Positions 1 through 30,048 of a stretch of 31,246 bases of DNA are shown piece by piece. The notes below the pieces were generated by a model, which had not been told where the DNA came from, did no database searches, and saw nothing but the letters and a program-made list of their open reading frames with translations. The position numbers and the translations under genes are program-made. Numbering within the stretch: position 1 is the stretch's first letter; the number at the start of each line of letters is the position of its first letter. The stretch comes from a virus. The stretch spans positions 1 to 31,246 of the IMG/VR virus record IMGVR_UViG_3300032213_000771. One strand, 5' to 3'.

Positions 1-1143
1 GATAGTGATATTTCATTTACACCAGATACACTTAAAAAACTTTTAAGTCATAATAAAGATATGGTATCTGGCCTTTATATACAAAGAAAACAAAACGAAC
101 ATATATTAGAAGTTTATGAACCTAACGATAGAGGTGGTTGTTCAAATATACCATTTGAAAAAATAAAGAATATTCCATTAGTAGAATTGGTAGCTTGTGG
201 TATGGGTTGTGTATTAATTAAAGGAGAAGTTTTTAGATCAATACCTTATCCTCATTTTGTTTATCATTCAGCAATAGATCATAAAAATACAATATCGGAA
301 GATGTTGATTTTTGTAGAAAAGTTAAAGCAAAAGGTTTTGGAATATTTGCTGATACAACAGTACATTGTGAACATATAGGTAATACAATTTTTAAAGTAG
401 AAAGTACACCCAATACATCAACTGTAAATAAAAAAGAAATTAATATACCTGATAGATTAAAAGATTTATCAACCAAAAGATTGTTACCTCAAATACACGT
501 AGATTATTTAAAAAGTTTAAACATATCACCTAAAGTAATTTACGATATAGGTGCTTGTGTTCTACATTGGACAAGTGAAGCTAAAACAATATGGCCAAAT
601 GCTGAGTATGTTGTTTTTGAAGCTATGTCTGAGTGTGAATTTTTATATAAAGAAAACAATTTACAATACCATATAGGTGTACTAAGTGATGTGAATGATA
701 AAAAAGTTAATTTTTACAAAAATACTTATCATCCTGGCGGAAATAGTTATTATAAAGAAAATGAACAAATCAGTTCTGAATCTAATAGATTGTATAATGA
801 AAGTAATAAAAAATTATATAAAACTAAAACTTTAGATAGTATTATAAGTTCAAGAAATCTGCCTATGCCAGATCTAATAAAAATAGATGTACAAGGTGCT
901 GAATTAGATGTACTAAAAGGATCTAAAGAAGCTTTAAAACATTGTAAAGATTTAATACTAGAATTACAAATAGTAGAATATAACAAAGGAGCACCTTTAA
1001 GAGATGAAGTAATTAAGTATGTTGAGAATTTAGGTTTTAGATTAATTTCAGGACCTTTTTGTGATAATGGCCCAGACGGAGATTATCATTTTTCAAAAAA
1101 CAATATTGAAATAAAAATACCTACAAATAAATTTTTTGATTAA
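1..1143 (+). CDS. Glycosyltransferase-FkbM methyltransferase fusion, 5' end missing
   Basis: The reading frame is open to the left edge, so this is the C-terminal 380 residues of a longer protein. The first residues (D-S-D-I-S-F-T-P-D) look like the DxD metal/nucleotide-sugar site of a GT-A (family 2-like) glycosyltransferase. The following segment supports that fold: VSGLYI near residue 22, ACGMGCVLI near 65-73, and SEDVDFCRKV with its downstream HCEHIGN near 100-127. After a linker comes an FkbM-type SAM methyltransferase: YDIGAC near 181 (the D-x-G-A SAM-binding loop) and LIKIDVQGAELDVLKG near 292-307, the family hallmark. Such fusions usually modify sugars on surface polysaccharide or virion glycoproteins; the substrate here is unknown. 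It converges on the minus-strand late block, and its stop codon overlaps that of the next gene. An internal ATG at 61 is not the start. Confidence 0.85.
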   Translation, partial: DSDISFTPDTLKKLLSHNKDMVSGLYIQRKQNEHILEVYEPNDRGGCSNIPFEKIKNIPLVELVACGMGCVLIKGEVFRSIPYPHFVYHSAIDHKNTISEDVDFCRKVKAKGFGIFADTTVHCEHIGNTIFKVESTPNTSTVNKKEINIPDRLKDLSTKRLLPQIHVDYLKSLNISPKVIYDIGACVLHWTSEAKTIWPNAEYVVFEAMSECEFLYKENNLQYHIGVLSDVNDKKVNFYKNTYHPGGNSYYKENEQISSESNRLYNESNKKLYKTKTLDSIISSRNLPMPDLIKIDVQGAELDVLKGSKEALKHCKDLILELQIVEYNKGAPLRDEVIKYVENLGFRLISGPFCDNGPDGDYHFSKNNIEIKIPTNKFFD

Positions 1144-1487
1144 GGAGTATAAGAAGAAACTACGCCAGGATAAACAGTAATAATACCTTCAACCACACGT
1201 GTTACTGTACTGTCGGATGTTTTTGTTATTTCAACATCATATACCCAACGGCCATCTTCTAACAAAGCAGTTGTAGCTGGTTCTAAAGCAATAGTTACAA
1301 TTCCATCAGCTTGATAGACAGTAATATCAAAATATACTCTATCGTAAGTGCTAGAGTATCCTTTTGACATTTTACCTTGAGCTGTATATCCCGTTAAATT
1401 AAAAGCCGTACCATCATCATTCTGTACTAATACATCACTTGTAAATGTGGCACCTGCGTCTAAAGATAAATTTGCTATACCTGCCAT
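1140..1487 (-). CDS. Small virion/baseplate-type protein (BppU-N-like)
   Basis: This 115-aa protein is rich in Thr, Val and Gly with a beta-sandwich look: an N-terminal LSLDAGATFTSDVLVQNDDGT, a central FDITVYQADGIVTIAL and a C-terminal TRVVEGIITVYPGV. The pattern resembles the small immunoglobulin-like proteins of cyanophage tail regions and the N-terminal domain of baseplate upper proteins. The resemblance is by memory only. It starts three bases after the stop of the 70-aa gene 1491-1703 and is probably translated from the same mRNA. It is the last gene of the long minus-strand block and ends head-on against the glycosyltransferase gene, leaving no room for a terminator. A structural role is likely; the exact position in the virion is not known. 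Confidence 0.6.
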   Translation of the reverse strand: MAGIANLSLDAGATFTSDVLVQNDDGTAFNLTGYTAQGKMSKGYSSTYDRVYFDITVYQADGIVTIALEPATTALLEDGRWVYDVEITKTSDSTVTRVVEGIITVYPGVVSSYTP

Positions 1488-1742: not shown

Positions 1743-2510
1743 CTATTCAAACTTAAATTTAAAACTAAATGTATATCTGTTTTTAGTATAATCATTAGCA
1801 ATTGTTTTATGTCTCATTAATGGATTGTAGTTATTAATGCAAACAAAAGTGCCATCAGTAGGATAGTGTTGATGTATTTCTTTAACGGTTTCATCTTCTT
1901 GTTCTTTACCAAAACACACTTGGCCATTCCATTCTGGTTTCCATTCCGTATAGTCATTAAAATACATCAATACAATCATATTACAACAGTCGTCAGAATC
2001 GTTATGCCAAGGCAAATCTTCAGTGCCATTCCATAATCCATATGTAAATGATTTAATACTTCTTAACCAAGTATTTTGTGTCATTCCATCTTTAATTAAA
2101 CTTAATTTTAATGGATCAAAGAAAGGCATATCCAATACTTTAATCGCTAACTCTTTTACACTATCAGGCGCATTGTTAAAACAATACATATCTCTTAATT
2201 GTTCTTCATAAGGAAAATCATTTACAGTATAAACTTTTTTATTATTAGGAGATATAATATTAGTTAAAGTATCTAAAGGCATTTGAGACCAAGAAGCGGC
2301 AATAGGCCCTTTTTTAAGATTTTCTTCTGTAAGATTTTGATTTGTTTTATTTTCTATTGTCTTTTGATTTTCTTCAATAAAATTTTTAAAAGTAGTTTCA
2401 GCAATAATTTGTTTAGCATCTTCCGTTAAATCATTCGGCAATATACCAACGTTAAATCCTACTTCAAAAAATTTATATACATCAAATTGGTAATCAAAAT
2501 TTAAATTCAT
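1743..2510 (-). CDS. 2OG-Fe(II) oxygenase, copy A
   Basis: This 255-aa protein is predicted to hydroxylate or otherwise oxidise a substrate using Fe(II), O2 and 2-oxoglutarate. The facial triad is visible: H169 and D171 in P-W-H-N-D, and H234 in L-M-R-H-K. R245, eleven residues after the distal His, is placed to bind the 2-oxoglutarate carboxylate. The double-stranded beta-helix core runs from about residue 150 to the C-terminus; the N-terminal 150 residues are helical and carry an extra segment (about 45-70) absent from the neighbouring paralogue. It is a tandem duplicate of 2514-3194, with near-identical first 25 residues and matching core motifs (WNGTE.LPWHND, FNDYTEWKPEW.GQVCFGKEQ). A Shine-Dalgarno AAGG lies upstream. 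It belongs to the overlapping modification-enzyme block. A protein or peptide substrate is inferred, not shown. Confidence 0.85.
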   Translation of the reverse strand: MNLNFDYQFDVYKFFEVGFNVGILPNDLTEDAKQIIAETTFKNFIEENQKTIENKTNQNLTEENLKKGPIAASWSQMPLDTLTNIISPNNKKVYTVNDFPYEEQLRDMYCFNNAPDSVKELAIKVLDMPFFDPLKLSLIKDGMTQNTWLRSIKSFTYGLWNGTEDLPWHNDSDDCCNMIVLMYFNDYTEWKPEWNGQVCFGKEQEDETVKEIHQHYPTDGTFVCINNYNPLMRHKTIANDYTKNRYTFSFKFKFE

Positions 2511-2513
2511 ATA

Positions 2514-3194
2514 TTAATGTACCTTAAATTTAATGTTAAAAGTAAATCTATTTTTAGTAAGATCATTTTGTTCTACTCTATGTTTAAACAAAGGATTATA
2601 ATTATTAATACAAACAAATGTACCATCAACTGGATAATGTTGATGTATTTCTTGTATTGTATTATTTTCCTGTTCTTTACCAAAACATACTTGGCCTTTC
2701 CATTCAGGTTTCCATTCCGTATAGTCATTAAAATATAATAACATCACCATATAACTACTATCATAATTGTCATTATGCCAAGGTAAATTTTCTGTTCCAT
2801 TCCATAAACTGTACGTGAAAGGTCTAATGGATCTTAACCAAGAAGTATCTTTATGTTGATCTTTTACTAAACTCTTTTTTAATGGATCAAAAAATTTTAA
2901 TGAGGATATTTCATTTGCAAAATTTTTAATGTAATAAGGCGCATTATTAAAACAATATAAATCTTTTAAATTTTCTTCATATCCAAATTCACCAAGACCA
3001 TGATTTTCTAAATTTAAACCTTCAGGTATTAAAGTCCAATCTGCTGAATATGGAGGAGGAGCATTAGTTCTAAATTTTGTTCTTTTAACTATTGCTTTAG
3101 CATGTTCTATATATTCAGAAGGAAGTATTCCTATGTTAAATCCCACCTCGTGAAATTTATGTACGTCAAATTGGTAATCAAAATTAAGATTCAT
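2514..3194 (-). CDS. 2OG-Fe(II) oxygenase, copy B
   Basis: This 226-aa protein is the close paralogue of 1743-2510, separated from it by only three bases. The iron site is H140, D142 and H205, with R216 as the expected 2-oxoglutarate ligand. The C-terminal 100 residues are very similar to copy A, while residues 40-70 differ strongly. The duplication has therefore kept the catalytic core and diverged in the region most likely to touch the substrate. The 5' end overlaps the preceding gene by 11 bases, so translation is probably coupled. Both copies are intact, with all active-site residues present, which argues that both are functional and may act on different positions or partners. Confidence 0.85.
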   Translation of the reverse strand: MNLNFDYQFDVHKFHEVGFNIGILPSEYIEHAKAIVKRTKFRTNAPPPYSADWTLIPEGLNLENHGLGEFGYEENLKDLYCFNNAPYYIKNFANEISSLKFFDPLKKSLVKDQHKDTSWLRSIRPFTYSLWNGTENLPWHNDNYDSSYMVMLLYFNDYTEWKPEWKGQVCFGKEQENNTIQEIHQHYPVDGTFVCINNYNPLFKHRVEQNDLTKNRFTFNIKFKVH

Positions 3195-3588
3195 CTATTA
3201 AAAATTCTTTCTTATAATATTCTTTTATATCGGGAACTATACCTTTAGTTTCATTTAAGGGCATAACTTTATTCAATATACTGTCATAAGTATTTATATC
3301 TTCATCATAAATCTTAAAATAAGGATCATTTCCATACAAAAGATCGCCGTCATTCAATAATTCATAAAAATCTTCACCAAAATCTTTTGACAACCAATAG
3401 GCATAACATATAGCTACTACATAACTTTTAGAAGGATATATAAAAGGCATATCTTTACTATAAAAATATTTTACAGCATTTTCAACCACATCATTAGAAA
3501 ATTCTACTGGTATTTTATTAAGATCATCAGTATGATCTGTAACCATTCTATGATATAATTCTTGTCTAATTTTCCATTCTTTTTTCAT
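3184..3588 (-). CDS. Unrecognised 134-aa protein in the modification block
   Basis: I do not recognise this gene. It encodes an acidic, mostly helical protein with many aromatic residues (MVTDHTDDL near 15-23, YPSKSYVVAICYAYWLSKDFGEDFYELL near 51-78, then a D/Y-rich C-terminus). No Cys pair, metal motif, signal peptide or clear membrane segment is visible. It overlaps the upstream radical SAM gene by 23 bases and the downstream oxygenase by 11 bases, so it is almost certainly co-translated with them. A small helical partner between a radical SAM enzyme and its accessory oxygenases could be a substrate-binding or adaptor subunit, but that is inference from position alone. Confidence 0.6.
   Translation of the reverse strand: MKKEWKIRQELYHRMVTDHTDDLNKIPVEFSNDVVENAVKYFYSKDMPFIYPSKSYVVAICYAYWLSKDFGEDFYELLNDGDLLYGNDPYFKIYDEDINTYDSILNKVMPLNETKGIVPDIKEYYKKEFLIDES
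3291..3298 (-). promoter_or_regulatory. Internal TATAAATA motif (weak late promoter candidate)
   Basis: The minus strand reads TATAAATA inside the 134-aa gene, 97 bases upstream of the oxygenase ATG at 3194. It could start an internal late transcript for the oxygenase pair. Because it lies inside coding sequence in very AT-rich DNA, chance is a good alternative. Confidence 0.2.
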
Positions 3589-4492
3589 AATAATCTAATA
3601 ATCCTTTATATCCGTTGCAACCATTATCTAAGTCTTTTACATAACGATAATGTTCCGTTAAACAATGCCCGTAATATTTACATTTTCTACATATATCAGA
3701 AACATTATTAATAGGTTCCTGTTCGGCCCACTTTACATACTCTTTAATAGAATTTAATTCTAAAAAATATTCCTTATCATTTTTATCAAACTCCAACACA
3801 GCAAAATTACCATTTGGTGTTATATAAACGTGATTGTTTGAAAATGCGTTATATTCCTTTTTCAAACTTCTAATTATATTACCTTCATTTATAAAATCAA
3901 ATCTTTTTTTTACAGGACTTTCAATCCATTTTTGTACAAACAACTCAAAATCTTTATGAGTAACTGGTTGAGAATTGGCTTGATTTATAGAATATGGTTT
4001 AATCTCTACACTTTCTATACTAGAACATAAATTCATTTTTTGTATCATATCATCTATATTCATCTCTAATACTTTTTGACTAGCGAGTATTAATACAGCA
4101 ATTGGTACAGGACTATGAAACATATTATTGTAAACCAAATCAGATTTTTCTCTGGCTTCAAAATCGTAACTTACACCTAAATAAAAATCAGATTGAAAGA
4201 AACCATCATGTAACATTGAAAGATTCGTTATTATATTAATTTTGTCCTTATAGTATTTTCTTATAACATCTTTTAATCCATAAAAGTAATCTTTTTTTAA
4301 CGCACCTATTTCACCACCGTACAAATCTACCCAATCAATCTTTCTAATTTTACTAATTTCTTTAAGTCTTTGATCGAGTATTTTTAGTGGTATTTTTTTT
4401 TGATCTCCCAATTGTTCAGTAGTAAGATAACAAAAGTTACATCTAAAGTTACAAAAGTAACTAGGATTGATCGATACTGTTATTGGTTTCAT
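3566..4492 (-). CDS. Radical SAM protein with SPASM-like C-terminus
   Basis: This 308-aa protein has the radical SAM cluster motif CxxxCxxC at C14, C18 and C21 (C-N-F-R-C-N-F-C), which binds the 4Fe-4S cluster that cleaves S-adenosylmethionine. A GGE motif at 59-61 (L-Y-G-G-E-I) contacts the SAM amino group. The C-terminus carries a shortened auxiliary-cluster motif: C268, C271, C277 and C292. The usual fourth Cys of the CxxC-x5-C-x3-C core is replaced (T-E-H), so this is a degenerate SPASM or 'twitch' type. The family modifies ribosomal peptides or proteins. It overlaps the oxygenase gene 4489-4998 by an ATGA junction and the next gene by 23 bases, indicating tight translational coupling. 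Confidence 0.85.
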   Translation of the reverse strand: MKPITVSINPSYFCNFRCNFCYLTTEQLGDQKKIPLKILDQRLKEISKIRKIDWVDLYGGEIGALKKDYFYGLKDVIRKYYKDKINIITNLSMLHDGFFQSDFYLGVSYDFEAREKSDLVYNNMFHSPVPIAVLILASQKVLEMNIDDMIQKMNLCSSIESVEIKPYSINQANSQPVTHKDFELFVQKWIESPVKKRFDFINEGNIIRSLKKEYNAFSNNHVYITPNGNFAVLEFDKNDKEYFLELNSIKEYVKWAEQEPINNVSDICRKCKYYGHCLTEHYRYVKDLDNGCNGYKGLLDYYEKRMEN

Positions 4493-4998
4493 TTATTTAA
4501 ATTAAAGTAAAAAGACGCTTGTATTCTTTGTCTATGTGTTTTACCAGCCCTATGTTTAAATTTTTTATCATTGTTGACTAATACTAAAGAACCTACACTT
4601 GGATAAAATGTCCAAACCTTATTATCTGTTTTAAATTCTATTTCTCCTTCTTTATATTTTTTCATTTCTGAGAAATATAATATAAAAAAGAAATCACATT
4701 CTTCTATATCATTATGCCATTCACTAGCTTTTGTATAAATGCCTTCCCACATTTGATGATCTCCCATAACATGTTCACCAAACATAGGTTGCACTATTTC
4801 ATCTGAAATATTAAAATGTATGGCCATTAAGGCCTTATCTAATTGTTTAGTATCTCCAGTAGGATGATAGTCATTATCAGTACCTGGAAAATTCCATTCA
4901 ATAGTATCGAGATTTACAAGATCAATATATTTTTTACCTTTAAATACTGTAAATCCTTTTGTAAAAAAATTAGATTTATGTTGTTCAATATTAGTCAT
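4489..4998 (-). CDS. 2OG-Fe(II) oxygenase, third type
   Basis: This 169-aa protein looks like a compact 2-oxoglutarate/Fe(II) oxygenase. The likely iron ligands are H95 and D97 (S-E-W-H-N-D-I-E) and H149 (K-F-K-H-R-A-G), with R158 as the 2-oxoglutarate-binding residue. The core strands F-F-F-I-L-Y-F-S, V-G-S-L-V-L-V-N-N and Q-A-S-F-Y-F-N-L are as expected for the cupin-like fold. It is not closely similar to the 1743/2514 pair, so it is a separate lineage rather than a third copy. It overlaps the neighbouring oxygenase by 8 bases and the radical SAM gene by 4. Two oxygenases flanked by radical SAM genes suggest sequential oxidation of one target; the target is unknown. Confidence 0.8.
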   Translation of the reverse strand: MTNIEQHKSNFFTKGFTVFKGKKYIDLVNLDTIEWNFPGTDNDYHPTGDTKQLDKALMAIHFNISDEIVQPMFGEHVMGDHQMWEGIYTKASEWHNDIEECDFFFILYFSEMKKYKEGEIEFKTDNKVWTFYPSVGSLVLVNNDKKFKHRAGKTHRQRIQASFYFNLNK

Positions 4999-5563
4999 TT
5001 TTTAAAAATAAATCTACAGGCACAGCAAGTCTTATTTTTCCTAAAAATGTTTCTACATTATGATAGGCGAAACTAGGAAATATGACTATATCACCAGATT
5101 TAGGAACAAATCTTATCGGATTAAACCATTGATTAAACTCTGAAGTATATCCTCTATTTGCGTTATGCCTAGGATCGTGTATTACTAATCCGCCTCCTTG
5201 ATTTTGTTCTTCACATAACAAATAAAACACAGCACTTAAATGAGACCCAGAATGATTATGTTTAGGCATAGAATAAGATGATTTATTACCTGTTATCCAA
5301 GCTTTTGTATGAAAATTTTTTTCAATATTGAGATTTTGTAATTTTATATATTTTTCAAAAGAAGGTATAACAATTTTTTCTTTAAATGTATTGAAATGTT
5401 TATCATTAAATAAATTTCCATCCAATATGTCTAATGAAATTTTTAAATCTTCAGAATTATAATTAGAAAAAATATGATTTATAATATCATTTAATATACC
5501 TTTATCGGTAATCGTATCTTTTAATATCGGTGTAGGCCAACAATAATTTATACCTTCATTCAT
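4991..5563 (-). CDS. Putative 2OG-Fe(II) oxygenase (2OG-FeII_Oxy_5-like)
   Basis: This 190-aa protein matches the layout of the phage-common family often called 2OG-FeII_Oxy_5. It has a C-W-P-T-P-I opening, P-K-H-N-H-S-G-S-H-L-S near 100-110, a G-G-G-L-V-I-H-D-P-R block near 123-132, G-D-I-V-I-F-P-S near 157-164 followed by Y-H-N-V (H168), and R178 near the end. H102/H104 and H168 are the likely metal ligands, and R178 the 2-oxoglutarate contact. These proteins are frequent in marine T4-like phages, where their substrates are unknown. It overlaps its neighbours by 8 and 4 bases within the enzyme block. Confidence 0.8.
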   Translation of the reverse strand: MNEGINYCWPTPILKDTITDKGILNDIINHIFSNYNSEDLKISLDILDGNLFNDKHFNTFKEKIVIPSFEKYIKLQNLNIEKNFHTKAWITGNKSSYSMPKHNHSGSHLSAVFYLLCEEQNQGGGLVIHDPRHNANRGYTSEFNQWFNPIRFVPKSGDIVIFPSFAYHNVETFLGKIRLAVPVDLFLKND

Positions 5564-6651
5564 AATACACTTTCATTTATATAAGGTGTTACTTCTATAT
5601 TTAGTCCGTTAGATTTAAGTATATCTGGCGCAATAGATTTCATTAACTTACAATGTTCTTCTACCATATCATGTTGTTTTAAATCTTTAACTGTCTTTCG
5701 ACAACCATTACATATCTCAAACATAGGACAAGTAAAACAGGCCTTCTTCATACTAATAAGATTAATATCATCTTGTAATGGTGTAAAAAACTCACCTTCC
5801 ATTTCTTTATCAAAATCTATTGATTTATCTTTATCATCACCAAACGAACCACAAGAATAATAATCGCCACTAGGATTTAATGCACGAATACCACTATCAC
5901 ATTTACGATTTTGAGGACATGATGTTCTTCCTCCAGTTAATCTTTGTATCATTTGTTTTGTATTAAATTCCCAAGGCGTAAGTCCACGTTTCCATATTTC
6001 TACATAGATTTGATATATTTTACTTAGTAAATAAGGTTTGCCTTGTTCACCACTCGCCATTGCATAGTTTAATTTACACTCCACACCGGTTTTACTATGA
6101 CGTGTAAAGTTATGTAATGTGCCATCAGGCACAACATCTTCACTCATACGCTTTGCTAGTTCCACATTTTTAATAGCATATTTTTCATTTTCAGGAACAA
6201 TAACAGATATAAAATCTGGTCTATAACCACAATGTTTCAACATTGCGTCTGAACATTTCCAAAAATCTTCTTCTGTAAATTCTGTCAAATCACCTTTAAG
6301 ACGGCCACCGCCATATTGAAACGAAGTAGTTATACCCACTCTTTCATTATTAAATAGATCAACCCACTTCTCTGGTTTCTTATAAAACGGCCATAAATTT
6401 GTAGTCAATGCAATAGATGTATCATAATCATGTTCATCTAACCATCTAATAATCTTCCAATAGTATTCAGGTTCCATCATTAAAGGATCTCCACCATTAA
6501 CTATAATAGTTTTTGTTTCAGGAAAACGTTTTAAAAATGAAAATATATAATCGTGTGATAACTCATCTTTTCTATTTTTGGATATCTTTGTACTAGAACA
6601 AAAAGTACATTTAAAGTTACATAACTCGGTAGGTTTAATTATTAAATCCAT
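5560..6651 (-). CDS. Radical SAM/SPASM protein
   Basis: This 363-aa protein has CxxxCxxC at C11, C15 and C18 and the SAM-binding G-G-D-P motif at 53-56. The C-terminal part has a Cys-rich auxiliary-cluster region: C245, C251 and C267 (around N-P-S-G-D-Y-Y-S-C-G), then C305, C308, C314, C317 and C334. This corresponds to a SPASM-type domain able to hold extra Fe-S clusters, as in PqqE, anSME and sactipeptide maturases. The stop codon region overlaps the next gene by an ATGA junction, and the start overlaps the stop of the B12-type radical SAM gene by one base (TAATG). It is most likely a maturase acting on a peptide or protein made in the same infected cell. Confidence 0.88.
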   Translation of the reverse strand: MDLIIKPTELCNFKCTFCSSTKISKNRKDELSHDYIFSFLKRFPETKTIIVNGGDPLMMEPEYYWKIIRWLDEHDYDTSIALTTNLWPFYKKPEKWVDLFNNERVGITTSFQYGGGRLKGDLTEFTEEDFWKCSDAMLKHCGYRPDFISVIVPENEKYAIKNVELAKRMSEDVVPDGTLHNFTRHSKTGVECKLNYAMASGEQGKPYLLSKIYQIYVEIWKRGLTPWEFNTKQMIQRLTGGRTSCPQNRKCDSGIRALNPSGDYYSCGSFGDDKDKSIDFDKEMEGEFFTPLQDDINLISMKKACFTCPMFEICNGCRKTVKDLKQHDMVEEHCKLMKSIAPDILKSNGLNIEVTPYINESVL

Positions 6652-8351
6652 TAGTTCAGCCTTTTAAATAATTCACTTATTATAATATGTTTATTATTAG
6701 AAATAATTTCATTGAATACATCTATTCTCAATTTACCATTTATTTTTTTAATACTTTTAGGTTCAGTGTCAATATCAAACAAATCAATTATGTAGTTATG
6801 TATATCATCAAATTCGGGCAACATTCTTAGTATCTTATAACATTCTTTACCAAAATCGCTTGGACATATTTGATTTTCATATAAAGGATAAATCAATTCT
6901 AATAATATATTACACGCTTGATTCATAAACCACATTTCGTACATATCTTCTTTAGTAAAACTATAACAGCTTTGTATAGTATAAAAATGATTTTTTTTTG
7001 TTTTATATAAACTATAAAGATTATCTACACCATCTTCGTCAATTAAATCTGTATAAACTTTTACCGGTTGAATTTTATATTCATCTAAGTATTCTTTTTT
7101 ACTTAAAACACTATCTGGTAAAATCATATAATCATGTCTATTATGACTAAATGCTTTAAAGTTCCATATTAATTCCATTTCATCATAGAAATCGTTTAAT
7201 GTAGAACCTGGCATTCCTAATATCAATTCTAATGCAGGAACAGGATAGCCTTTTTCTCTACATTGCTTTTCTATATGTTTACTTAACTCAATTTTATCTT
7301 CTGACGTTAAATCAACTCTTTTAGATACTTTCATTGCTTCATCTGATATACTTTGAATCGCAACAGTAGGCACAATCGAAATAGAATTTTCACCGGCATC
7401 TTTATCCCACCACTCAAAGTTTTTAACTTGTTTTGCGGTTTTACTTTCTTTTTTAGGACCTACTATTTCAAACCAACAATCAACTAAACGTTTTCTTCTA
7501 GTCAAATCTTTAGACTTCATAGTAGATATGTCTGTAAGATTTACTCCTTGCTCCCACGCAAATTTAAATATCTCTAAATCTCTTTCTTCAAAAGCACCAA
7601 AGTTTGCATCAGTTAAAAACGCACTTGTATATCCCGCACTTTTCATAGCAGAAATATCTTTCTTTGCAATTTCTATTTTCTTTGTTATAATTTTTGTTTC
7701 TAATCCCCCACCCCATTCACAATATACACATTTATATGGGCAACCTCTTGTAGTTTCTAATACTATAAAAGATTCCATTTTATTTTGTTTAGAATAATCG
7801 CATATTTTTTTTAAATAATCAAAATGTTCTTCATATATCGAATAATCAGGCAAACCACATTTAGTTTGTTTTTTACTATTCATTTCCCAACTAATATCTT
7901 TTTTGTTAACTTTTCCATTGTTGTCTATATAAGAATTTAAAAAATCTTCTATAAAAACTTCACCTGGTTTTGTGGGTTGGCATATAAAATCGTAATTTGT
8001 TCTTGTTTTAAAAAACTCAGAATCGTTTGTACCTATATGAGGTCCACCTAAAATACATATTGCATTTTTGTTTACTTTCTTAACATGTTCGGCAAATAAA
8101 TCACATAGATCATAATTCCAAACATAACTACTAATTAAATAGATATCGGCATCAGGTATCTCATTGTAAATTTCTTCTATACTTTTATATTGATTAAATT
8201 TATATGGAGCTTCCAACCATTCAAATCTATCATAGTATTTGCCAAATCTTTTATAATGACTTTGCATCATTAAATAAGTGGCACTGTTTGCAAGACACCA
8301 ATCAGCGTGTGGAGGATTCACAAATCCAATTTTACTTTTTTGAATCAGCAT
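6651..8351 (-). CDS. B12-binding-domain radical SAM protein (class B-like)
   Basis: This protein has 566 residues with the start used here. The N-terminal half (about 1-140) has the Rossmann-like pattern of cobalamin-binding domains: I-G-F-V-N-P-P near 8-14, Y-L-I-S-S-Y near 71-76 and C-I-L-G-G-P-H-I-G near 99-107. The radical SAM core follows, with T-T-R-G-C-P-Y-K-C-V-Y-C placing the cluster cysteines at C204, C208 and C211, and P-A-L-E-L-I-L-G-M-P-G-S later in the barrel. Members of this class typically methylate unactivated carbons or rearrange carbon skeletons. I chose the ATG at 8351 because the longer frame to 8375 lies mostly inside the previous gene. It overlaps that gene by 20 bases and ends in a TAATG junction with 5560-6651. 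The C-terminal 200 residues are not assigned. Confidence 0.85.
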   Translation of the reverse strand: MLIQKSKIGFVNPPHADWCLANSATYLMMQSHYKRFGKYYDRFEWLEAPYKFNQYKSIEEIYNEIPDADIYLISSYVWNYDLCDLFAEHVKKVNKNAICILGGPHIGTNDSEFFKTRTNYDFICQPTKPGEVFIEDFLNSYIDNNGKVNKKDISWEMNSKKQTKCGLPDYSIYEEHFDYLKKICDYSKQNKMESFIVLETTRGCPYKCVYCEWGGGLETKIITKKIEIAKKDISAMKSAGYTSAFLTDANFGAFEERDLEIFKFAWEQGVNLTDISTMKSKDLTRRKRLVDCWFEIVGPKKESKTAKQVKNFEWWDKDAGENSISIVPTVAIQSISDEAMKVSKRVDLTSEDKIELSKHIEKQCREKGYPVPALELILGMPGSTLNDFYDEMELIWNFKAFSHNRHDYMILPDSVLSKKEYLDEYKIQPVKVYTDLIDEDGVDNLYSLYKTKKNHFYTIQSCYSFTKEDMYEMWFMNQACNILLELIYPLYENQICPSDFGKECYKILRMLPEFDDIHNYIIDLFDIDTEPKSIKKINGKLRIDVFNEIISNNKHIIISELFKRLN

Positions 8352-9360
8352 ACCTAAATGTTTCCTTAAACACACATTCGTTCATATCATGTTCAATAAA
8401 TTTAAAATCTTGTTTTATAAAGCAAGTAAAAGGACATCTTTGAAAAAACTCACATTCAAAACAATTATATTTTTTCATAAAATTTTCAATAATTTTAGTG
8501 CCACCTAAATCTTTTGTATTTGAATCTTTTAATAACACCGCACCAGAACAGCCTCTAGGTATGTTACCATCTGGCATTATTGTTAAACTGTTGCCTTTAG
8601 TACAACCCATTTTATTATTTGTTTTGCCATTTAAGAATGGTTCTATGTTTAACATTTTAGGATATTTGTCAACACATAGTTTATAGAATTTAAATGTTTC
8701 CGATTCAGCAGGCATCATAAAGACATTGGTTTTTCTAGTTACACTTGGCAATAAAGAATCAAAATGTATTTCAAAATTATTATATAGATAATCAAAGTAT
8801 TCATCACCAGCAACTATCTTTTCAATGTTTTGTTTAGTTAAAACACAACTTATCATTTTAATATGTGGTTTAAGAATATCTATATTTTTTTTAAAAGTCT
8901 CTAGTGTAGGTGTATTAAATCTACCCACAATATCATAAGAAACTGATAATATAATATTATTTTTTTTAATAAAATCTATAACTAAATCTGTTTTATCAAA
9001 TACAAGATTAGTAACAAAATTAAATACGACTGTTTTATCTGAAGAAACTTTTTGTTTAACCTGTTCTATTAATTTAGAGTATATATCTAAGAAGCCTTTA
9101 TCTGTCCAAGTATCTTGTAATAATTCACCACCCATAGTGTTTATTATAAAATGTTTTGATCTATCGTTTCGTTTAATATAAGTAGTTATTGTTGAAACTT
9201 TATTTAAGATTTCTTCTTCTGAAGCGCCCAATATACTTGAATGATCTTGTGGGCAAAAAGCACATGATAAATTGCAATGTTCAAATAAACATAAAACGAT
9301 TTCGGACCAATCTATAACTTTATTATCTATTACTTTGTAGAATGATATATCTTCTCGCAT
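8332..9360 (-). CDS. Radical SAM/SPASM protein with full auxiliary motif
   Basis: This protein has 342 residues from the ATG at 9360. The cluster motif is C29, C33 and C36 (C-N-L-S-C-A-F-C), with a G-G-E motif at 77-79. The C-terminus holds a complete SPASM pattern: C253, then C271 after a P-D-G-N turn, then C300-x2-C303-x5-C309-x3-C313, and C329. This predicts one radical SAM cluster plus up to two auxiliary 4Fe-4S clusters, as in RiPP maturases. An in-frame GTG at 9366 gives two more residues; ATG 9360 is preferred because the AAGGTG sequence lies just upstream as a ribosome-binding site. There is no overlap with 9369-10508, so this gene may have its own translation start. Confidence 0.88.
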   Translation of the reverse strand: MREDISFYKVIDNKVIDWSEIVLCLFEHCNLSCAFCPQDHSSILGASEEEILNKVSTITTYIKRNDRSKHFIINTMGGELLQDTWTDKGFLDIYSKLIEQVKQKVSSDKTVVFNFVTNLVFDKTDLVIDFIKKNNIILSVSYDIVGRFNTPTLETFKKNIDILKPHIKMISCVLTKQNIEKIVAGDEYFDYLYNNFEIHFDSLLPSVTRKTNVFMMPAESETFKFYKLCVDKYPKMLNIEPFLNGKTNNKMGCTKGNSLTIMPDGNIPRGCSGAVLLKDSNTKDLGGTKIIENFMKKYNCFECEFFQRCPFTCFIKQDFKFIEHDMNECVFKETFRYADSKK

Positions 9361-9368
9361 TTTCACCT

Positions 9369-10508
9369 TTATAAAACATATGGAGCCAGTGCCTGTTTGT
9401 TATCCGAATTAAATTCATTAAAAATATGTTGTATAAAATATGTGTTAATGGTTGGAAAATTTGTTCCATAAAATGTTCCTGTATTAAAAGAACTATCTTG
9501 TGAACTTTGATGATTTATAATATCATCTAATTGTTTATCAGTAAATTGAGAATTTCTAAGTAATGGTAAAATATCTATTAAATAACTCCATTCAACTTCA
9601 GATACACCTAAAGAAACTAAAAATTGTCTGATATTTTCTATATGTTGATCCGTGATATTAGCAAAATTAATTAATGATTTAGAACCTGTAGTTAAACAAA
9701 CATCATAAGTTGCGTAATCTAAGTTATTCAATAAAAAAACACTTGAATTATTATAAAAAGTTTGTACTATAGGGTGTTTATTTTTAAGAACATCTAAACA
9801 ATTATTCATAGAATATGTTTGTGTAATACCAATTTTAGTTAAAAAATTTTTATTTAACAAATGATATGTAAATAACTCTCTAATATTATACAACCATTTA
9901 GATATTTCTATTTTTACCAAAGGAATTAATGAACTTTTTAAGTTATTTTTTTTAGAACCATTATAAAGATAAGAAGTTAATAAAAATTCCACACTAAAAC
10001 TTGAAATATTATTATTTACAAAACTTTGATATTCCTGTCTGTTTATTTCTAAGTCATCATATTCAGATTGTAATTTTTCAGAATCAAATAATATATCGTT
10101 ATTTTTATTTTTATCAACCATGTTCCAATAACTTGATATTTTTAAAAAATTTTTATAATCAAAATTTAGTTTTACAAGACTTACAATATCATTTGTAGTT
10201 GCATTAGGTAATATAATTTTATACCATAAACTTAATATTTTGTAATAACTATCTTTATCAGCATAGATATAAACAGGTTTATCAGTTTCGATAGTTTTAT
10301 CATTAACTTTATTAAGCAAATCTTTAAAAGAATTTACATTATTTAAATTATTTAAATTTTTACCATAAGTTATAAGTCTTCCGCCTGAAATTTTTTCTAT
10401 TTCACTCCAATTTTGAACACCATTTAATTCAGATACAACCACCCTATCGTAATTATAATCTATATTAGCGTCATGTTCTAAATAAACTTTTCTAAATAGA
10501 TGTAACAT
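9369..10508 (-). CDS. Unrecognised 379-aa protein in the modification block
   Basis: I do not recognise this gene. The first 130 residues alternate strands and helices (D-R-V-V-V-S-E-L-N-G, G-G-R-L-I-T-Y-G, K-P-V-Y-I-Y-A-D-K-D-S-Y) in a way that suggests an alpha/beta, possibly nucleotide-binding-like fold. The remainder is helical and rich in Asn, Leu and Tyr. There are only two Cys and no visible metal-binding cluster. It overlaps the upstream gene by 17 bases and so appears coupled to it. Its place directly after the Cys-His-tailed protein and its short neighbour makes it a candidate partner protein (recognition, chaperone or scaffold) for that substrate, on position alone. Confidence 0.65.
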   Translation of the reverse strand: MLHLFRKVYLEHDANIDYNYDRVVVSELNGVQNWSEIEKISGGRLITYGKNLNNLNNVNSFKDLLNKVNDKTIETDKPVYIYADKDSYYKILSLWYKIILPNATTNDIVSLVKLNFDYKNFLKISSYWNMVDKNKNNDILFDSEKLQSEYDDLEINRQEYQSFVNNNISSFSVEFLLTSYLYNGSKKNNLKSSLIPLVKIEISKWLYNIRELFTYHLLNKNFLTKIGITQTYSMNNCLDVLKNKHPIVQTFYNNSSVFLLNNLDYATYDVCLTTGSKSLINFANITDQHIENIRQFLVSLGVSEVEWSYLIDILPLLRNSQFTDKQLDDIINHQSSQDSSFNTGTFYGTNFPTINTYFIQHIFNEFNSDNKQALAPYVL

Positions 10509-11184
10509 TTTTTATTAATTCCTTATCTTGTTCTTTTGCTGTTATATAATCTTTATTTTTACCTTGAGATACTGCTAATGTTAATAAAAACATCGGATTA
10601 TTTAGATTACCCCAAAAACTAAACAAATTTTTACCTCTGAACATATAATCATCAAAATAATGAGTGTAAAAGTTTACATTTTCATTTAATTTATTGTAAA
10701 ACGAATAAAATCTTTCGTGTTTTAATAGGCTTAAGAAATTAACACCTGTTAAATCTTTAGTATCATTCTTTGGAAAAGTTTTCGCATAATCTCTTAATAA
10801 ATCAGAATTTACAATGTAAGCATTGAATATTGTTAAACTGTCTAATTTATCAGACCATTTAGAAATAATTTCTTTGTTTTGTTCAATAAAATCTTTATAA
10901 TTATTTTCTTTAACTAAACCTTTGTATTGTAATAAAACATTAATAGCAATATTTTCCAATGAATTAATATTCACTAAAGAAATACTATTAAAATAATCTT
11001 TAACTAATTCTAAATCCGGTTCTTTTATATCTACAGGTAAATCCAAATTACTTAAATATGTTAACAATTTTGATCCTTTCATTTCGCTTTTAGAATAATC
11101 AATTATATAAAAAGTGTCTTTATTTGTAAAATATTTTTTTAAATCTTCTATTGATATTGGTGCCGTTGTTTCAATTATTTTCAT
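10492..11184 (-). CDS. Unrecognised 230-aa protein next to the Cys-His-tailed protein
   Basis: I do not recognise this gene. The start chosen is the ATG at 11184, which shares its A with the TAA stop of the preceding gene (TAATG). A longer frame to 11211 would read through the tail-coding part of that gene and is unlikely. The protein begins with a short alpha/beta section (residues 1-55, with D-T-F-Y-I-I-D-Y-S-K) and is then mostly helical. It contains no Cys, signal peptide or membrane segment. The exact stop/start coupling implies that it is made together with the Cys-His-tailed protein. It may bind or escort it, but no domain supports a specific function. Confidence 0.65.
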   Translation of the reverse strand: MKIIETTAPISIEDLKKYFTNKDTFYIIDYSKSEMKGSKLLTYLSNLDLPVDIKEPDLELVKDYFNSISLVNINSLENIAINVLLQYKGLVKENNYKDFIEQNKEIISKWSDKLDSLTIFNAYIVNSDLLRDYAKTFPKNDTKDLTGVNFLSLLKHERFYSFYNKLNENVNFYTHYFDDYMFRGKNLFSFWGNLNNPMFLLTLAVSQGKNKDYITAKEQDKELIKNVTSI

Positions 11185-11756
11185 TATCTTCTTCCTCTGT
11201 TGCTGTGGCACGAACTATGGCAACTTGAATGACATACGTCCACTTGTATTGTTTGTGTATTAGCGGATTGAGTGCTATATTCTGTTTGTAGATTTGTAAA
11301 AAATGTTTCTAAACCTGATGCTGTTATTGTGTTGCCCGAAACAACATTACTAAAATTAACAGAATTTAAAGTTTGTCTATATGTAATATTTAAATTTGAT
11401 TTACTGGTCGCATCAAAAATTACTCCTGGAGAACCATAACTTCCTGTATTTCCTCCTCCACCTGTAACGTTTAATACTGCTTTTAAATTTCTTATGTTAG
11501 TATAAAGAGCCGTTTCTGTAAGTAAAGCATTTATAATACTAGAAGCTGTAATAGTATTTCCTGTAGAACCTATAGAAGAACCTGTGGCTGTTATTGTAGT
11601 TCCAGCAGTTGTGCCTGCAAACGTGGCATCAGGCATTTCTGTAAAAGGTTTACTATTTGTTCCCCAAATAATAGTTGAGTTTGCTGTATCTGTTACAAAA
11701 TCTTTAAATCTATCCACAATATTTTGTGGTGTAATTGGATTATTTAACGTTGTCAT
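11184..11756 (-). CDS. Virion-like protein with Cys-His-Ser-Ser tail; candidate modification substrate
   Basis: This 190-aa protein has a Thr/Gly/Ser-rich body like phage fibre or virion proteins: repeated T-I-T-A-S/T patterns at 54-72 and 143-147, and a Gly patch at 99-111. The last 16 residues are C-H-S-S-C-H-S-S-C-H-S-N-R-G-R-R. Cys 175, 179 and 183 and His 176, 180 and 184 are the only Cys and His in the whole protein. The frame ends in TAA followed in frame by TGA. The 5' end overlaps the radical SAM/SPASM gene 11740-12777 by 17 bases, and the stop shares a base with the next start. A short, regular, Cys-rich C-terminal tail beside a SPASM maturase is the usual arrangement of a RiPP core peptide. 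Here it is attached to a structural-type protein rather than a short leader. Metal or haem binding by the tail is an alternative. Confidence 0.75.
   Translation of the reverse strand: MTTLNNPITPQNIVDRFKDFVTDTANSTIIWGTNSKPFTEMPDATFAGTTAGTTITATGSSIGSTGNTITASSIINALLTETALYTNIRNLKAVLNVTGGGGNTGSYGSPGVIFDATSKSNLNITYRQTLNSVNFSNVVSGNTITASGLETFFTNLQTEYSTQSANTQTIQVDVCHSSCHSSCHSNRGRR
11187..11234 (-). repeat. Three-unit Cys-His-Ser-Ser repeat tail
   Basis: The three units are encoded TGT CAT TCA AGT, TGC CAT AGT TCG and TGC CAC AGC AAC, followed by R-G-R-R. The units differ at Cys, His and Ser codons, including both TCN and AGY serine boxes. The repeat is therefore held at protein level rather than being a fresh DNA duplication. 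The four-residue period puts every Cys and His on related faces of an extended or helical tail. Confidence 0.85.
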
Positions 11757-12777
11757 ATTTTATATTACTTTTTAATTCCTTCATTAAACTCTTAGGTGCG
11801 CCACATATATCACCTTGCCAAGCAAGTTGGTGACAATCACCTCCACAAAACTCAAAAACCTCGCAAGAAAAACATATAGGATTTCTTGAACGCTCACAAG
11901 CAATGTTTTCTATTCTAACTGGACTATTTATAACGGTTTGTATATCGTCATTTATAGTGCCAAACGAGAACTCCGGTGCAGAATTAGGGCATCCTGATAT
12001 TGTACCATCTGCGTTTATTGTAAATATCTTTTGTTCACAGTCTCTACAAAATGTACCGCCTTTTAAAAAACCTGTTTCAAATTTACTGTATATGACTTCT
12101 AATGTTTCGTTATCAAACCAACTCCTACAATCAAACTGTTTAGACTGGTGGTGCATTTTTAAAAACCATTTATCTTGTTCTATATTATCAGGAAATATCT
12201 CAGGATGTAGTTTCGCATTACCATTTCCTGTTAATCTTTCGAATGATATCTCTTGTACGCCCAACTCTTTAATCCACTTTAATAATTCAATTGGTTCCAT
12301 TGCTATAGTATCTTTAGTTACACTAATAAACAATTTAATTGTAACACCTCTATTCAATAAATCTTTTACGTTTTTTTCCCATAAGTTGTATTGAGCATCA
12401 TTTTCAAATCGTATTTTAGGATCCCAACTTGTGCCCATACGATTGTTCAAAGGACCTTTTATAAATTCATAGTGTTCATCTTTTAATTTTAAAACAAGAT
12501 TTGAAGTTATACCCCAAGACATATTAGGCCACAAGTCTTTACATTCTTCATATACTTTATTCATATGAGATATAGGCGCTAAAAATGGTTCGCCTCCATG
12601 AAATTCTAAATGTATAGTATCTTCATTTTTATTAAAATATTGTCTAAATCTTTTTATAAAATCTATTGTTTTGAAATGATCAAAGTAAATCTTTTTACCG
12701 TTTATACCGCTAGTAAAACAGTGTTTACAATTCAATTGACAAGTTTCAGTTGTCTTTAAATAAAACATCCAATTCAT
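11740..12777 (-). CDS. Radical SAM/SPASM maturase (anSME/PqqE-like)
   Basis: This 345-aa protein is the clearest RiPP-maturase-like enzyme here. CxxxCxxC is at C13, C17 and C20 (C-Q-L-N-C-K-H-C). F-H-G-G-E-P-F at 59-65 is the canonical GGEP SAM site, as in sulfatase and peptide maturases. A full SPASM domain follows: C244/C247, C263 after N-A-D-G-T-I-S-G, C302-x2-C305-x5-C311-x3-C315, and C325. It is therefore expected to bind one radical and two auxiliary 4Fe-4S clusters. It starts on a TAATG junction with the cupin-like gene and overlaps the Cys-His-tailed gene by 17 bases, so enzyme and putative substrate are translated together. The reaction (thioether, C-C, C-O crosslink, epimerisation or other) cannot be read from sequence. 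Confidence 0.9.
   Translation of the reverse strand: MNWMFYLKTTETCQLNCKHCFTSGINGKKIYFDHFKTIDFIKRFRQYFNKNEDTIHLEFHGGEPFLAPISHMNKVYEECKDLWPNMSWGITSNLVLKLKDEHYEFIKGPLNNRMGTSWDPKIRFENDAQYNLWEKNVKDLLNRGVTIKLFISVTKDTIAMEPIELLKWIKELGVQEISFERLTGNGNAKLHPEIFPDNIEQDKWFLKMHHQSKQFDCRSWFDNETLEVIYSKFETGFLKGGTFCRDCEQKIFTINADGTISGCPNSAPEFSFGTINDDIQTVINSPVRIENIACERSRNPICFSCEVFEFCGGDCHQLAWQGDICGAPKSLMKELKSNIKYDNVK
11925..11932 (-). promoter_or_regulatory. Internal TATAAATA motif upstream of the Cys-His-tailed gene
   Basis: The minus strand reads TATAAATA inside the radical SAM gene, 168 bases before the ATG of the 190-aa protein. It could give extra late transcription of the candidate substrate over its maturase. 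It lies in coding sequence (V-I-N-S-P) and may be chance. Confidence 0.25.
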
Positions 12778-13226
12778 TAATTAAATCCTATACTTAATGC
12801 CCAAGTGTTTGGTAAACTATCAACCTTGTGTTTTAATCCTTTTGGTATAAAAACAGCTTGTTCTTCTTTTACCAAAACTGGATGTTTATCTATATAAATT
12901 TTCTTTGATCCCTTTACAATATATAAAAGAACATTTGTATCGTCCTCATGTTCTGGAAAAGAAAATCCACCATATTGATTATAAAATAAATGAACACTGT
13001 TTACTTTATGATTTAAATTAAAATCTTTTAATATCTTTAAATGAAATGTTTTATCTTCTAAACCTTCAATTTTTATGTGAGGTATATCTTTATATGTTTT
13101 AATCCAATTACCATAAGTTATTTGATCTTTAACTTTATAGTCTTTGCCTTTTTCGTCTATATAAATTATTTGATTGTTTTCGTACCTAGAAAAAGAAACC
13201 ATCTCATCATTTAAAACTTTAATCAT
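12777..13226 (-). CDS. Cupin/JmjC-like metal-dependent protein
   Basis: This 149-aa protein has an N-terminal helical/strand part and a cupin barrel from about residue 75. The barrel includes F-P-E-H-E-D-D at 90-96, L-L-Y-I-V-K-G-S-K-K at 100-109, E-Q-A-V-F-I-P-K-G-L-K-H at 122-133 and W-A-L-S-I-G-F at the end. H93, D95 and H133 are the likely metal ligands in the HxD...H arrangement of cupin-like and JmjC-like hydroxylases. The length is short for a JmjC enzyme, so it could also be a non-enzymatic cupin. It heads the enzyme block: its stop overlaps the start of the SPASM maturase, and it lies 24 bases downstream of the tail fibre gene. This suggests joint action on a tail protein. Confidence 0.7.
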   Translation of the reverse strand: MIKVLNDEMVSFSRYENNQIIYIDEKGKDYKVKDQITYGNWIKTYKDIPHIKIEGLEDKTFHLKILKDFNLNHKVNSVHLFYNQYGGFSFPEHEDDTNVLLYIVKGSKKIYIDKHPVLVKEEQAVFIPKGLKHKVDSLPNTWALSIGFN

Positions 13227-13250: not shown

Positions 13251-14582
13251 TTATAGTATAATTGCCTCTATTAGGCCTTTTTCATTATCTTCCAATGCGA
13301 TAGCAAATACTTTAGTAAATTGTTCACTAATAGTTGTAGCAAAACCACCATTACCGGCAACTAACTCATCACCTTTTTTAATAGTGCCCACAACTTTTAC
13401 TTTAACACGTCCTTTTAATGCAATTGGTTGTCCTTTAGCTTGAGAGTTCATTAAAAAAGCAGGTCTATTAGATATAACACCTAAAGCTCTTTTACCAACA
13501 AAACACTCAGTAACTTCTTTTTCTCCACCCACCATTACGACAGTACCAACATCATAAAGTTTGTCAGTTTCATAAATCTCAGCTAAATCGGCATATTGCG
13601 CCTGCGTAGCTGTTGTAGATAATATATTTGTTGATGGATTGTATGATAAACTTGTATCTGTTTCTAAACTTTGATTACCTGTAGCTGTGTCAGAAAAAGT
13701 TAAATAAACTGTTTCATTATTTGTATTATTAGCACTTAATGTAACAGCAGTAGCTATTGAAGCTATACCTGTAAAATTAGTAGCAGTTACGTTACCAAAA
13801 GTTACGTTATCAGAAGATACATTTAATTTAGCACCTCTAATTGTGTTATCGGCAATATCACCATTTACGATTGTGCCATCAGCAATCATTGTACTTGTAA
13901 CCGTACCTGTGTCTCCTGTAGTAACTATTGTTCCTGTTATGTTTGGTATTGTAATAGTTCTATCTGCTGTTGGATCAACAACAACTAAAGTTGTTTCAAA
14001 ATTGTCAGCTGTAGAACCTTCAAATTGAATTCCTGCTGAACCTGTTAAAATTAAATCTGTACCTTGAATTGTAGAAGAACCTGTAATAGTAGTTCCTGAA
14101 ATAGCACCTGTTGAAGTTACAGAAGTTGATGACACACCTCCATTAACACTTAAAGAGTCATTAATTCTAACTGTAGTAGAATCTGTTGATCTAATATTAT
14201 TTCCACTAATTTCTATTGTGCCTAGTGTATGTAATGTTCCCGTAACTGTTAAATTTCCAGGCAACGTTACGTTAGTAGGAAAACTTAAAGTTAAAATACG
14301 TGTAGCGCTTACAACAGCATTAATTTGATTTGTTGTGCCAAGCACTGTTAATGTTTGACCAGAACTAATAGTTTGAGTGGTATTAGCCGAATCTTTAATA
14401 TTATAACCTCCAGCAGCAAAAGCAACAGCCGCCAATTCAACTACAGCCCCAACCACAGAAGTTGCGGATATACCTGCTGGTGATAGTAAAGCAGGATCAC
14501 CAAAATCGTTTGTAGTTAAGTTGTTTAACTTAACTCGCATCTGTTCTAGTGTATCCGTAGTATTAATTACTGTGTATGCCAT
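13251..14582 (-). CDS. Tail fibre protein
   Basis: This 443-aa protein has the make-up of a cyanophage-type tail fibre. The N-terminal segment (M-A-Y-T-V-I-N-T-T-D-T-L-E-Q-M-R) is probably the virion attachment part. The middle section (about 90-330) has repeated short beta strands with T, S, G, N and V (L-T-V-T-G-T-L, V-T-S-T-G-A-I-S-G-T-T-I-T-G). The C-terminal domain from about 333 begins Q-Y-A-D-L-A-E-I-Y-E-T and contains V-G-T-V-V-M-V-G-G-E-K-E-V-T. That C-terminal domain is widespread on cyanophage fibres and may be the trimerising or receptor-binding tip. It is a possible target of the modification enzymes that follow directly downstream. It starts 3 bases after the small helical gene. 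Confidence 0.8.
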   Translation of the reverse strand: MAYTVINTTDTLEQMRVKLNNLTTNDFGDPALLSPAGISATSVVGAVVELAAVAFAAGGYNIKDSANTTQTISSGQTLTVLGTTNQINAVVSATRILTLSFPTNVTLPGNLTVTGTLHTLGTIEISGNNIRSTDSTTVRINDSLSVNGGVSSTSVTSTGAISGTTITGSSTIQGTDLILTGSAGIQFEGSTADNFETTLVVVDPTADRTITIPNITGTIVTTGDTGTVTSTMIADGTIVNGDIADNTIRGAKLNVSSDNVTFGNVTATNFTGIASIATAVTLSANNTNNETVYLTFSDTATGNQSLETDTSLSYNPSTNILSTTATQAQYADLAEIYETDKLYDVGTVVMVGGEKEVTECFVGKRALGVISNRPAFLMNSQAKGQPIALKGRVKVKVVGTIKKGDELVAGNGGFATTISEQFTKVFAIALEDNEKGLIEAIIL

Positions 14583-29937: not shown

Positions 29938-30048
29938 ATGAAGGAAAAATATTTTTATTTAAGTTTATTATTAGGTCCCGTTGTTGTTTTTTTATTATAC
30001 AAATTAGGCCTAGAACTATGGTGTCTGGCTTATGCGTTTATTCATTAA
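29938..30048 (+). CDS. 36-aa membrane peptide ahead of the TonB receptor
   Basis: The ORF starts M-K-E-K-Y-F-Y and has one hydrophobic stretch (about 7-22: Y-L-S-L-L-L-G-P-V-V-V-F-L-L-Y), then a short tail ending A-F-I-H. It is the first ORF after the strong promoter and overlaps the receptor gene start by 17 bases, so it may couple or tune translation of that gene. It may also be a small inner-membrane partner. No homologue is recognised. Confidence 0.5.
   Translation: MKEKYFYLSLLLGPVVVFLLYKLGLELWCLAYAFIH

Follow-up and report, generated by a model that had tools for sequence, protein, structure and literature searches.

Radical S-adenosylmethionine (SAM) enzymes are known from the structural regions of several jumbo phages. 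In phage 332-Vera eight radical SAM genes lie among structural genes and were called highly unusual (PMC12390700), and papers on related jumbo phages list such enzymes as oddities (FLC6, PMC8066314; RP12/RP31, PMC5468394; 332-Vera, PMC12390700); the portions of these papers available to us describe no tail like the one treated here, no substrate link and no function. Phage-like fibre adhesins chaperoned by S74 domains, the mosaic adhesive trimer (MAT) fibres, are found in the predatory bacterium Bdellovibrio, and the main text of the paper on them has no mention of radical SAM enzymes (PMC10769870). Here we describe a gene cassette in the viral record IMGVR_UViG_3300032213_000771 of IMG/VR, whose whole stretch of 31,246 bases (G+C 29%) is called the window. 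The cassette (positions 1743-13226, minus strand) holds five radical SAM proteins, one of them of the cobalamin (B12) type, four proteins similar to 2-oxoglutarate (2OG) oxygenases, one cupin, three conserved unknowns and one protein of 190 amino acids (aa) with a C-terminal tail of Cys and His, and FLC6 holds the same cassette. We read it as a multi-enzyme, tag-directed system that would modify this tail on a fibre-associated phage protein, in the manner of the ribosomally synthesized and post-translationally modified peptides (RiPPs), and give this reading a probability of about three in four. It is favoured by the gene content, by an invariant linkage of tailed gene and enzymes, by the conservation and predicted disorder of the tail, and by the spread of the system to bacteria. 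A ribosomally made candidate substrate with a conserved core is encoded beside the modifying enzymes, as in RiPPs in the broad sense.

The genes are arranged almost without gaps, and all the open reading frames (ORFs) reported in an earlier note on this DNA, with their near-continuous overlap, were found again on the minus strand at the coordinates given there, joined by short overlaps or gaps. After the fibre gene (13251-14582) the order is cupin, rS1, TAIL, hA, hB, rS2, B12-rSAM, rS3, two 2OG-type genes, rS4, h1 and two further 2OG-type genes. The counts below refer to 65 viral loci with enough flanking sequence.

13251..14582 (-): FIB, tail-fibre protein encoded next to the cassette on its upstream side, carrying a Peptidase_G2 domain (autoproteolytic intramolecular chaperone, IMC); PF11962 above cut-off at 27.1 bits; 60/65 loci
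12777..13226 (-): CUP, cupin protein (Cupin_2); PF07883 28.6 bits, just over cut-off; 63/65 loci
11740..12777 (-): rS1, radical SAM/SPASM protein directly upstream of TAIL; PF04055, PF13186; TIGR04085 33.9 bits
11184..11756 (-): TAIL, proposed substrate, 190 aa, ends in CHSSCHSSCHSNRGRR before the stop codon (translation; phrog_35144)
11187..11234 (-): coding stretch of the 16-residue tag CHSSCHSSCHSNRGRR, ahead of the stop codon (translation; conservation in 64 distinct proteins)
10492..11211 (-): hA, conserved unknown, phrog_20767; 65/65 loci
9369..10508 (-): hB, fast-evolving conserved unknown; 57/65 loci
8332..9366 (-): rS2, radical SAM protein with SPASM-like C-terminus; PF04055 E 1.3e-3; phrog_1802 E 4.5e-34; 64/65 loci
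6651..8375 (-): B12-rSAM, cobalamin-binding radical SAM protein, optional module; NF033712 (KedN5 family) E 3.7e-26, far below its cut-off; 24/65 loci
5560..6651 (-): rS3, radical SAM/SPASM protein; PF04055 35.2 bits, over cut-off
4991..5563 (-): 2OG-Fe(II) oxygenase; PF13759 47.9 bits
4489..4998 (-): 2OG-Fe(II) oxygenase-like protein; PF13640 23.1 bits, below cut-off
3566..4492 (-): rS4, radical SAM protein, C-terminus SPASM-like but degenerate; PF04055 slightly under cut-off at 28.7 bits; 61/65 loci
3184..3588 (-): h1, conserved unknown; phrog_20737 E 6.4e-47; 55/65 loci
2514..3194 (-): 2OG oxygenase-like protein; PF13661 23 bits, below cut-off
1743..2510 (-): 2OG oxygenase-like paralogue of 2514-3194 (sequence similarity; no Pfam match)

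Homologues of hA in alignment A3 suggest that hA really begins at the ATG that overlaps the stop codon of TAIL near 11184.

The tailed gene, which the earlier note cited only in its proposed tests, proves to be the central part of the system. Two scans of the viral collection were made with rS1 and without using the tail, the second with a more distant query. They rely on rS1 motifs and favour rS1 kin, they overlap in contigs, and the metagenome contigs are redundant and partly fragments; together they hold 84 distinct rS1 proteins. A tailed ORF lies immediately downstream of rS1 in 70/70 and 59/59 usable loci, those with more than 1.2 kb of downstream sequence, with one gene between in a few, and it ends in CHxxCHxxCHxxRxRR before the stop codon. 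The co-occurrence that the earlier note proposed to check thus extends to every usable rS1 locus and across different phage groups. Relatives of rS1 are present on about 350-360 contig stretches of the viral collection. The cupin, rS1, hA, hB, rS2, rS3 and rS4 are each found in 57-65 of the 65 flanked loci, and with h1 included the core genes reach 85-100%. From marine T4-like contigs to jumbo phages the genes keep the order fibre-cupin-rS1-tail-hA-hB-rS2...rS3-rS4-h1, while 2OG genes vary from 0 to 4 per locus and the B12-rSAM was gained or lost at least 12 times on the rS1 tree.

Other entry points give a similar picture. A scan with the B12 enzyme finds the strict tail in 63/80 loci; among the 17 others, five have CHSNCHxxCHGSI before the stop codon at the corresponding site, several lie on contigs with truncations or rearrangements, and another five are distantly related B12 enzymes with no recognisable cassette. 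When viral loci are selected by the tail, a radical SAM gene lies within the fetched stretch in 97/119, and rS1 is found elsewhere on the contig in 14 of 18 remaining records that were checked. A degenerate DNA pattern of the tail matches at least 120 viral stretches and 19 stretches among 84,980 prokaryote genomes; at least 3 of these 19 (L133, L134 and L140) look like chance, as the match ends in TGG or has no usable ORF. In-frame stops suspected in one rS1 copy lie outside the gene, and its ORF is intact.

The tag CHSSCHSSCHSNRGRR is composed of three Cys-His-x-Ser units followed by RGRR. Nine positions (C-16, H-15, C-12, H-11, C-8, H-7, R-4, R-2 and R-1) are 100% invariant among 64 distinct proteins, and the codons at these positions differ synonymously in 42% of cases per pair. 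In alignment A2 the mean identity is 42% for the bodies and 86% for the tails, and the bodies fall into 12 BLAST families. AlphaFold2 predicts a body with pLDDT (predicted local distance difference test) mostly above 90 and a disordered tail at about 53. The few significant viral fold matches include the tailed protein of Atu_ph07, and therefore at least that BLAST-unrelated body shares the fold. Three matches to the fold in BFVD (A0A8S5USJ8, A0A8S5USJ7 and A0A8S5USV2, from Myoviridae sp. ctijX18) are proteins of 504-660 aa. A tblastn search of isolate phages with the tailed protein or its 26-aa tail found nothing, because the body is too divergent and the tail probably masked as low-complexity.

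Variation exists in the number and form of the repeats. At one locus (L040, 8105-8878, minus strand) the tail has four repeats, CHSNCHSNCHSNCHTNRSRR, and several radical SAM genes lie close by. In L010, L033, L075, L127 and others two tailed genes stand in tandem, each encoding about 127 aa with another kind of body, the enzymes being often elsewhere on the contig. Natural variants such as CHSNCHGSCHGSI and CHSSHSSHSSHSSRGRR, each at the protein end, retain H-x-S/N units. Across 81 phage loci, Asn in place of Ser at the fourth repeat position (-13, -9 and -5) is associated with the B12-rSAM gene (raw Fisher p 9e-6); this association is not established, since among pairs that are independent on the phylogeny it comes down to about 2.5 against 1, which is not significant.

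Bacteria carry the system as well. The cassette is found on five Bdellovibrionota contigs, from Halobacteriovoraceae, Bacteriovorax, Bdellovibrionaceae, Bacteriovoracaceae and one metagenome-assembled genome of the same phylum set, where the flanks, examined by eye, look like normal chromosomal gene content, and no structural genes of phages were recognised in them. Among 192 Bdellovibrionota genomes, rS1 is present in 9 and the tail in 5, and all 5 tail carriers are among the 9 (hypergeometric p 6e-8). Three of the other four rS1 carriers have variant tails just before hA, namely CHSNHCSHSNHGSRGRR, CHSSHSSHSSHSSRGRR and CHSNCYTPPPKSRSRR; one Bdellovibrionota variant tail, in a distant relative (L396:4310-4918), reads HSSHSSHSSHSS followed by RGRR. 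The H-x-S/N units are therefore the most constant element, the Cys spacing is changeable and RxRR is the usual protein end. A Peptidase_S74 gene lies near four of the bacterial cassettes; Pfam assigns a prepilin N-methylation motif to two of these genes, and a third shows one on inspection by eye. The rS1 tree intermixes phage and bacterial rows, with at least three switches on supported branches. Three bacterial cassettes (G005, G008 and G003; L230, L237 and L234) contain a further rS1 copy that has diverged, a hint of gene duplication and of new roles.

These tails bear on an alternative in which the tail is mainly a metal-binding fibre tip, with Cys/His clusters between subunits, and the enzymes serve to make or install a metal centre or cofactor in place of peptide cross-links. 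The regular CHxS spacing fits repeated Cys/His ligand sets, and gp37 of phage T4 has iron-binding tips made of HxH motifs. However, metal binding alone would not need four or five radical SAM enzymes, and the variant tails CHSSHSSHSSHSS and CHSNCYTPPPKSRSRR lose most of their Cys or His ligands, so that we consider this explanation unlikely.

The domain evidence agrees with the enzyme classes named in the earlier note, with some differences in detail. PF04055 matches all five radical SAM proteins (11740-12777, 8332-9366, 6651-8375, 5560-6651 and 3566-4492), each of which has CxxxCxxC; only 5560 exceeds the cut-off, the other four matches being weaker yet significant, and phrog_1802 is a strong match for all but 6651. 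The N-terminus of 6651-8375 is B12-binding (PF02310, E 1.2e-3), and the enzyme is probably a C-methyltransferase. The SPASM patterns are confirmed by domain models for 11740; 5560 stays below the cut-off (21.3 against 27 bits), and the SPASM-like end of 8332 and the degenerate one of 3566 are seen by eye. Among the four proposed oxygenases, 4991 passes its model, 2514 and 4489 do not reach theirs, and 1743 is assigned solely by its paralogy to 2514. The cupin at 12777 and the neighbouring tail fibre gene at 13251 pass their models. The identity of rS3 to its jumbo-phage relatives is 50-65%. Among curated families, those closest to rS1, rS2 and rS3 are mostly maturases of peptides or proteins, and the enzymes do not fall with nucleotide or lipid families.

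This last result also concerns the view that these are auxiliary metabolic genes whose enzymes have small molecules, nucleotides or glycans as substrates, with the tail incidental. Radical SAM and 2OG genes of marine viromes are indeed listed as auxiliary metabolic (PMC7150976). The view is nevertheless very improbable, as the tailed gene adjoins rS1 at all usable loci of both scans, some contigs being common to both, and the cassettes borne by bacteria keep it. Equally remote is a role of the tailed protein as a carrier, whose tail would hold a small molecule during its assembly and then let it go, as in the pearlins; many tailoring enzymes accompany one conserved C-terminus, as such a pathway would have it, but neither an aminoacyl-tRNA-using ligase nor a release protease was recognised, and its product would have no need to be linked to the virion.

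Isolated phages bear on the location of the tailed protein. A tblastn search of the isolate collection with rS1 gives 7 of 50,697 records, all jumbo phages, and in the four divergent groups inspected (Atu_ph07, Phosso, FLC6 and pPa_SNUABM_DT01) the cassette order is kept. The gene after rS1 in these groups encodes 178-306 aa with an unrelated-looking body and a similar end, for example CHSSCHTSCHGSRGRR. In FLC6 two dihydrofolate reductase genes lie within the cassette (L008, 18319-19532). Mass spectrometry of Atu_ph07 virions gave clusters of virion-protein genes that include coding sequences (CDS) 170-215 (PMC6102473). The numbering was checked, with gp198 being the portal and gp215 the major capsid protein, and gp170, the first of this published cluster, is the tailed protein, with the C-terminal tryptic peptide ...DFCHSSCHASCHNSR. 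In phage AP-J-162 the structural cluster comprises ORFs 49-63, based partly on the Atu_ph07 data (PMC11242549), and it would end at the tailed gene if its gene order follows that of Phosso. In the window, the minus-strand baseplate module is T4-like (wedge subunits and a PAAR protein), and a small tail-fibre-region gene follows the cassette (1140..1487, minus strand; phrog_1084, E 6.2e-23; phrog_3304, 'L-shaped tail fiber protein assembly', E 1.4e-19).

The earlier note had left open whether a virion protein or a secreted peptide is modified. The results support a modification of this kind, itself inferred, and favour the virion protein, because a chaperoned fibre gene adjoins, neither an exporter nor a protease was recognised among the genes of the window's cassette, and the published Atu_ph07 virion cluster begins at the tailed gene. 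If the tail were instead released after maturation to act as a modified, diffusible peptide (a toxin, bacteriocin or signal), the body would be a long leader. Radical SAM/SPASM enzymes encoded close to a short C-terminal core rich in Cys are a usual sign of secreted RiPPs, and the nearest NCBIfam models include PapB, DynA and DarE. In addition to the lack of a recognised peptidase or exporter and the position among tail genes, the body is predicted to fold confidently and is far longer than a usual leader, and we find this explanation quite unlikely.

In the preferred reading, a modification of the tail on the virion protein, the body of the substrate (11184-11756) would fold while its flexible C-terminal tag stays exposed. 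The rS1 enzyme, encoded beside the substrate, probably acts first, on Cys, Ser or His of the tag, and hA and hB probably recognise or present it, hA being a possible recognition or adaptor partner. rS2, rS3, rS4 and the cupin would finish the core chemistry, and the B12-rSAM and the 2OG oxygenases would be swappable tailoring enzymes, for which C-methylation and hydroxylation, respectively, are likely by family. After maturation the protein probably belongs to the chaperoned tail fibre encoded next door, or is attached to it, and ends in the virion, where the modified tail may serve attachment, receptor binding or metal-assisted rigidity. The tail is a strong candidate for the substrate of the cassette enzymes; our confidence is moderate for the fibre location, and weak for the reaction types, which are taken from family knowledge, and for the purpose of the modified tail.

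Several points weigh against this reading. No cassette enzyme reaches the cut-off of a specific NCBIfam maturase, and therefore the reaction types are not readable from the families. hA, hB and the tailed protein have no relatives in PDB sequence and fold searches, and hB has no credible Pfam relative either; without a recognised fold or family for hA and hB, their recognition role is a guess, and without a PDB structure like the tailed body the fibre placement is unproved. The virion evidence is a published cluster boundary in one phage, Atu_ph07, and not a protein list.

A broader and more tentative proposal, which we hold at somewhat below even odds, is that a portable maturation machine common to phages and predatory bacteria builds, in several steps, one common structure, cross-linked or metal-binding, at the C-termini of fibre-tip proteins that are otherwise dissimilar. 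It would be a ribosomally encoded device, made by enzymes, for attachment or penetration, and a virion maturation with no described counterpart. Searches of the literature on combinations of tail sequence, phage RiPP, tail fibre and auxiliary metabolic genes found no description of the tail, its function or a role in virion maturation; radical SAM clusters in phage structural regions are already known, and the tail and its role are apparently undescribed. The few isolate records, against the hundreds of viral contig stretches, may explain why the system was overlooked and its genes filed as metabolic. Genes usually called 'metabolic' look here like tools for making the adhesive parts of fibres. 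Should the tail indeed be modified, phages would be using several enzymes in a RiPP-like pathway to upgrade one of their virion proteins chemically; new protein chemistry would come within reach, and an adhesin technology common to phages and predatory bacteria could be tested in existing isolates.

Two other genes of the window are of note. A plus-strand gene at 1-1143, convergent with the cassette, has a glycosyltransferase-like N-terminal part and an FkbM methyltransferase domain (PF05050). The start of a TonB-dependent receptor gene (PF07715, PF00593), unusual in a phage, lies at 30032-31246 on the plus strand and runs off the contig end; a tie to the cobalamin supply of the B12-rSAM is pure speculation.

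Among described systems, the His-Xaa-Ser system (HxsA with the radical SAM proteins HxsB and HxsC; TIGR03978, TIGR03977) is also a multi-radical-SAM cassette with H-x-S units, and the Bdellovibrionota tail HSSHSSHSSHSS with RGRR forms a bridge between the substrate motifs. rS1 and rS3 match HxsB and HxsC weakly, both below cut-off (40.3 against 370 and 33.3 against 267.9 bits). The window's tail has four-residue CHxS units with an RGRR end, whereas HxsA has a tandem three-residue repeat, and the cassette has extra radical SAM proteins, the cupin, 2OG proteins, hA, hB and a phage and fibre setting. The PapB ranthipeptide maturases (NF047865), which form thioethers from Cys to acidic residues, give the best NCBIfam model for rS1 (E 1.1e-12) and share with it SPASM and regularly spaced Cys; rS1 scores 47.9 bits against a cut-off of 340, the C-x3-D core is missing and the substrate is a 190-aa virion-type protein. 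The CXXX-repeat system (TIGR04115; rS1 E 3.3e-9) likewise has Cys at every fourth core residue, as in the invariant C-16, C-12 and C-8, but the score is 36.7 bits against 350, and the cassette differs by its fixed His, RGRR and other partner genes. The B12 enzyme at 6651-8375 reaches 91.5 bits against the cut-off of 700 for the KedN5 B12-dependent methyltransferases. Anaerobic sulfatase-maturating enzymes (anSMEs; TIGR03942) are radical SAM/SPASM enzymes that act on Cys or Ser of a full-size protein, and rS1 matches them with E 2.7e-11 (43.1 bits against a cut-off of 349) and aligns with the anSME structures 4k37 and 4k36, although no sulfatase or CxPxR motif is seen here. The best reading by analogy is that the cassette works like a radical SAM/SPASM RiPP pathway and, in its full-size protein substrate, like anaerobic sulfatase maturation.

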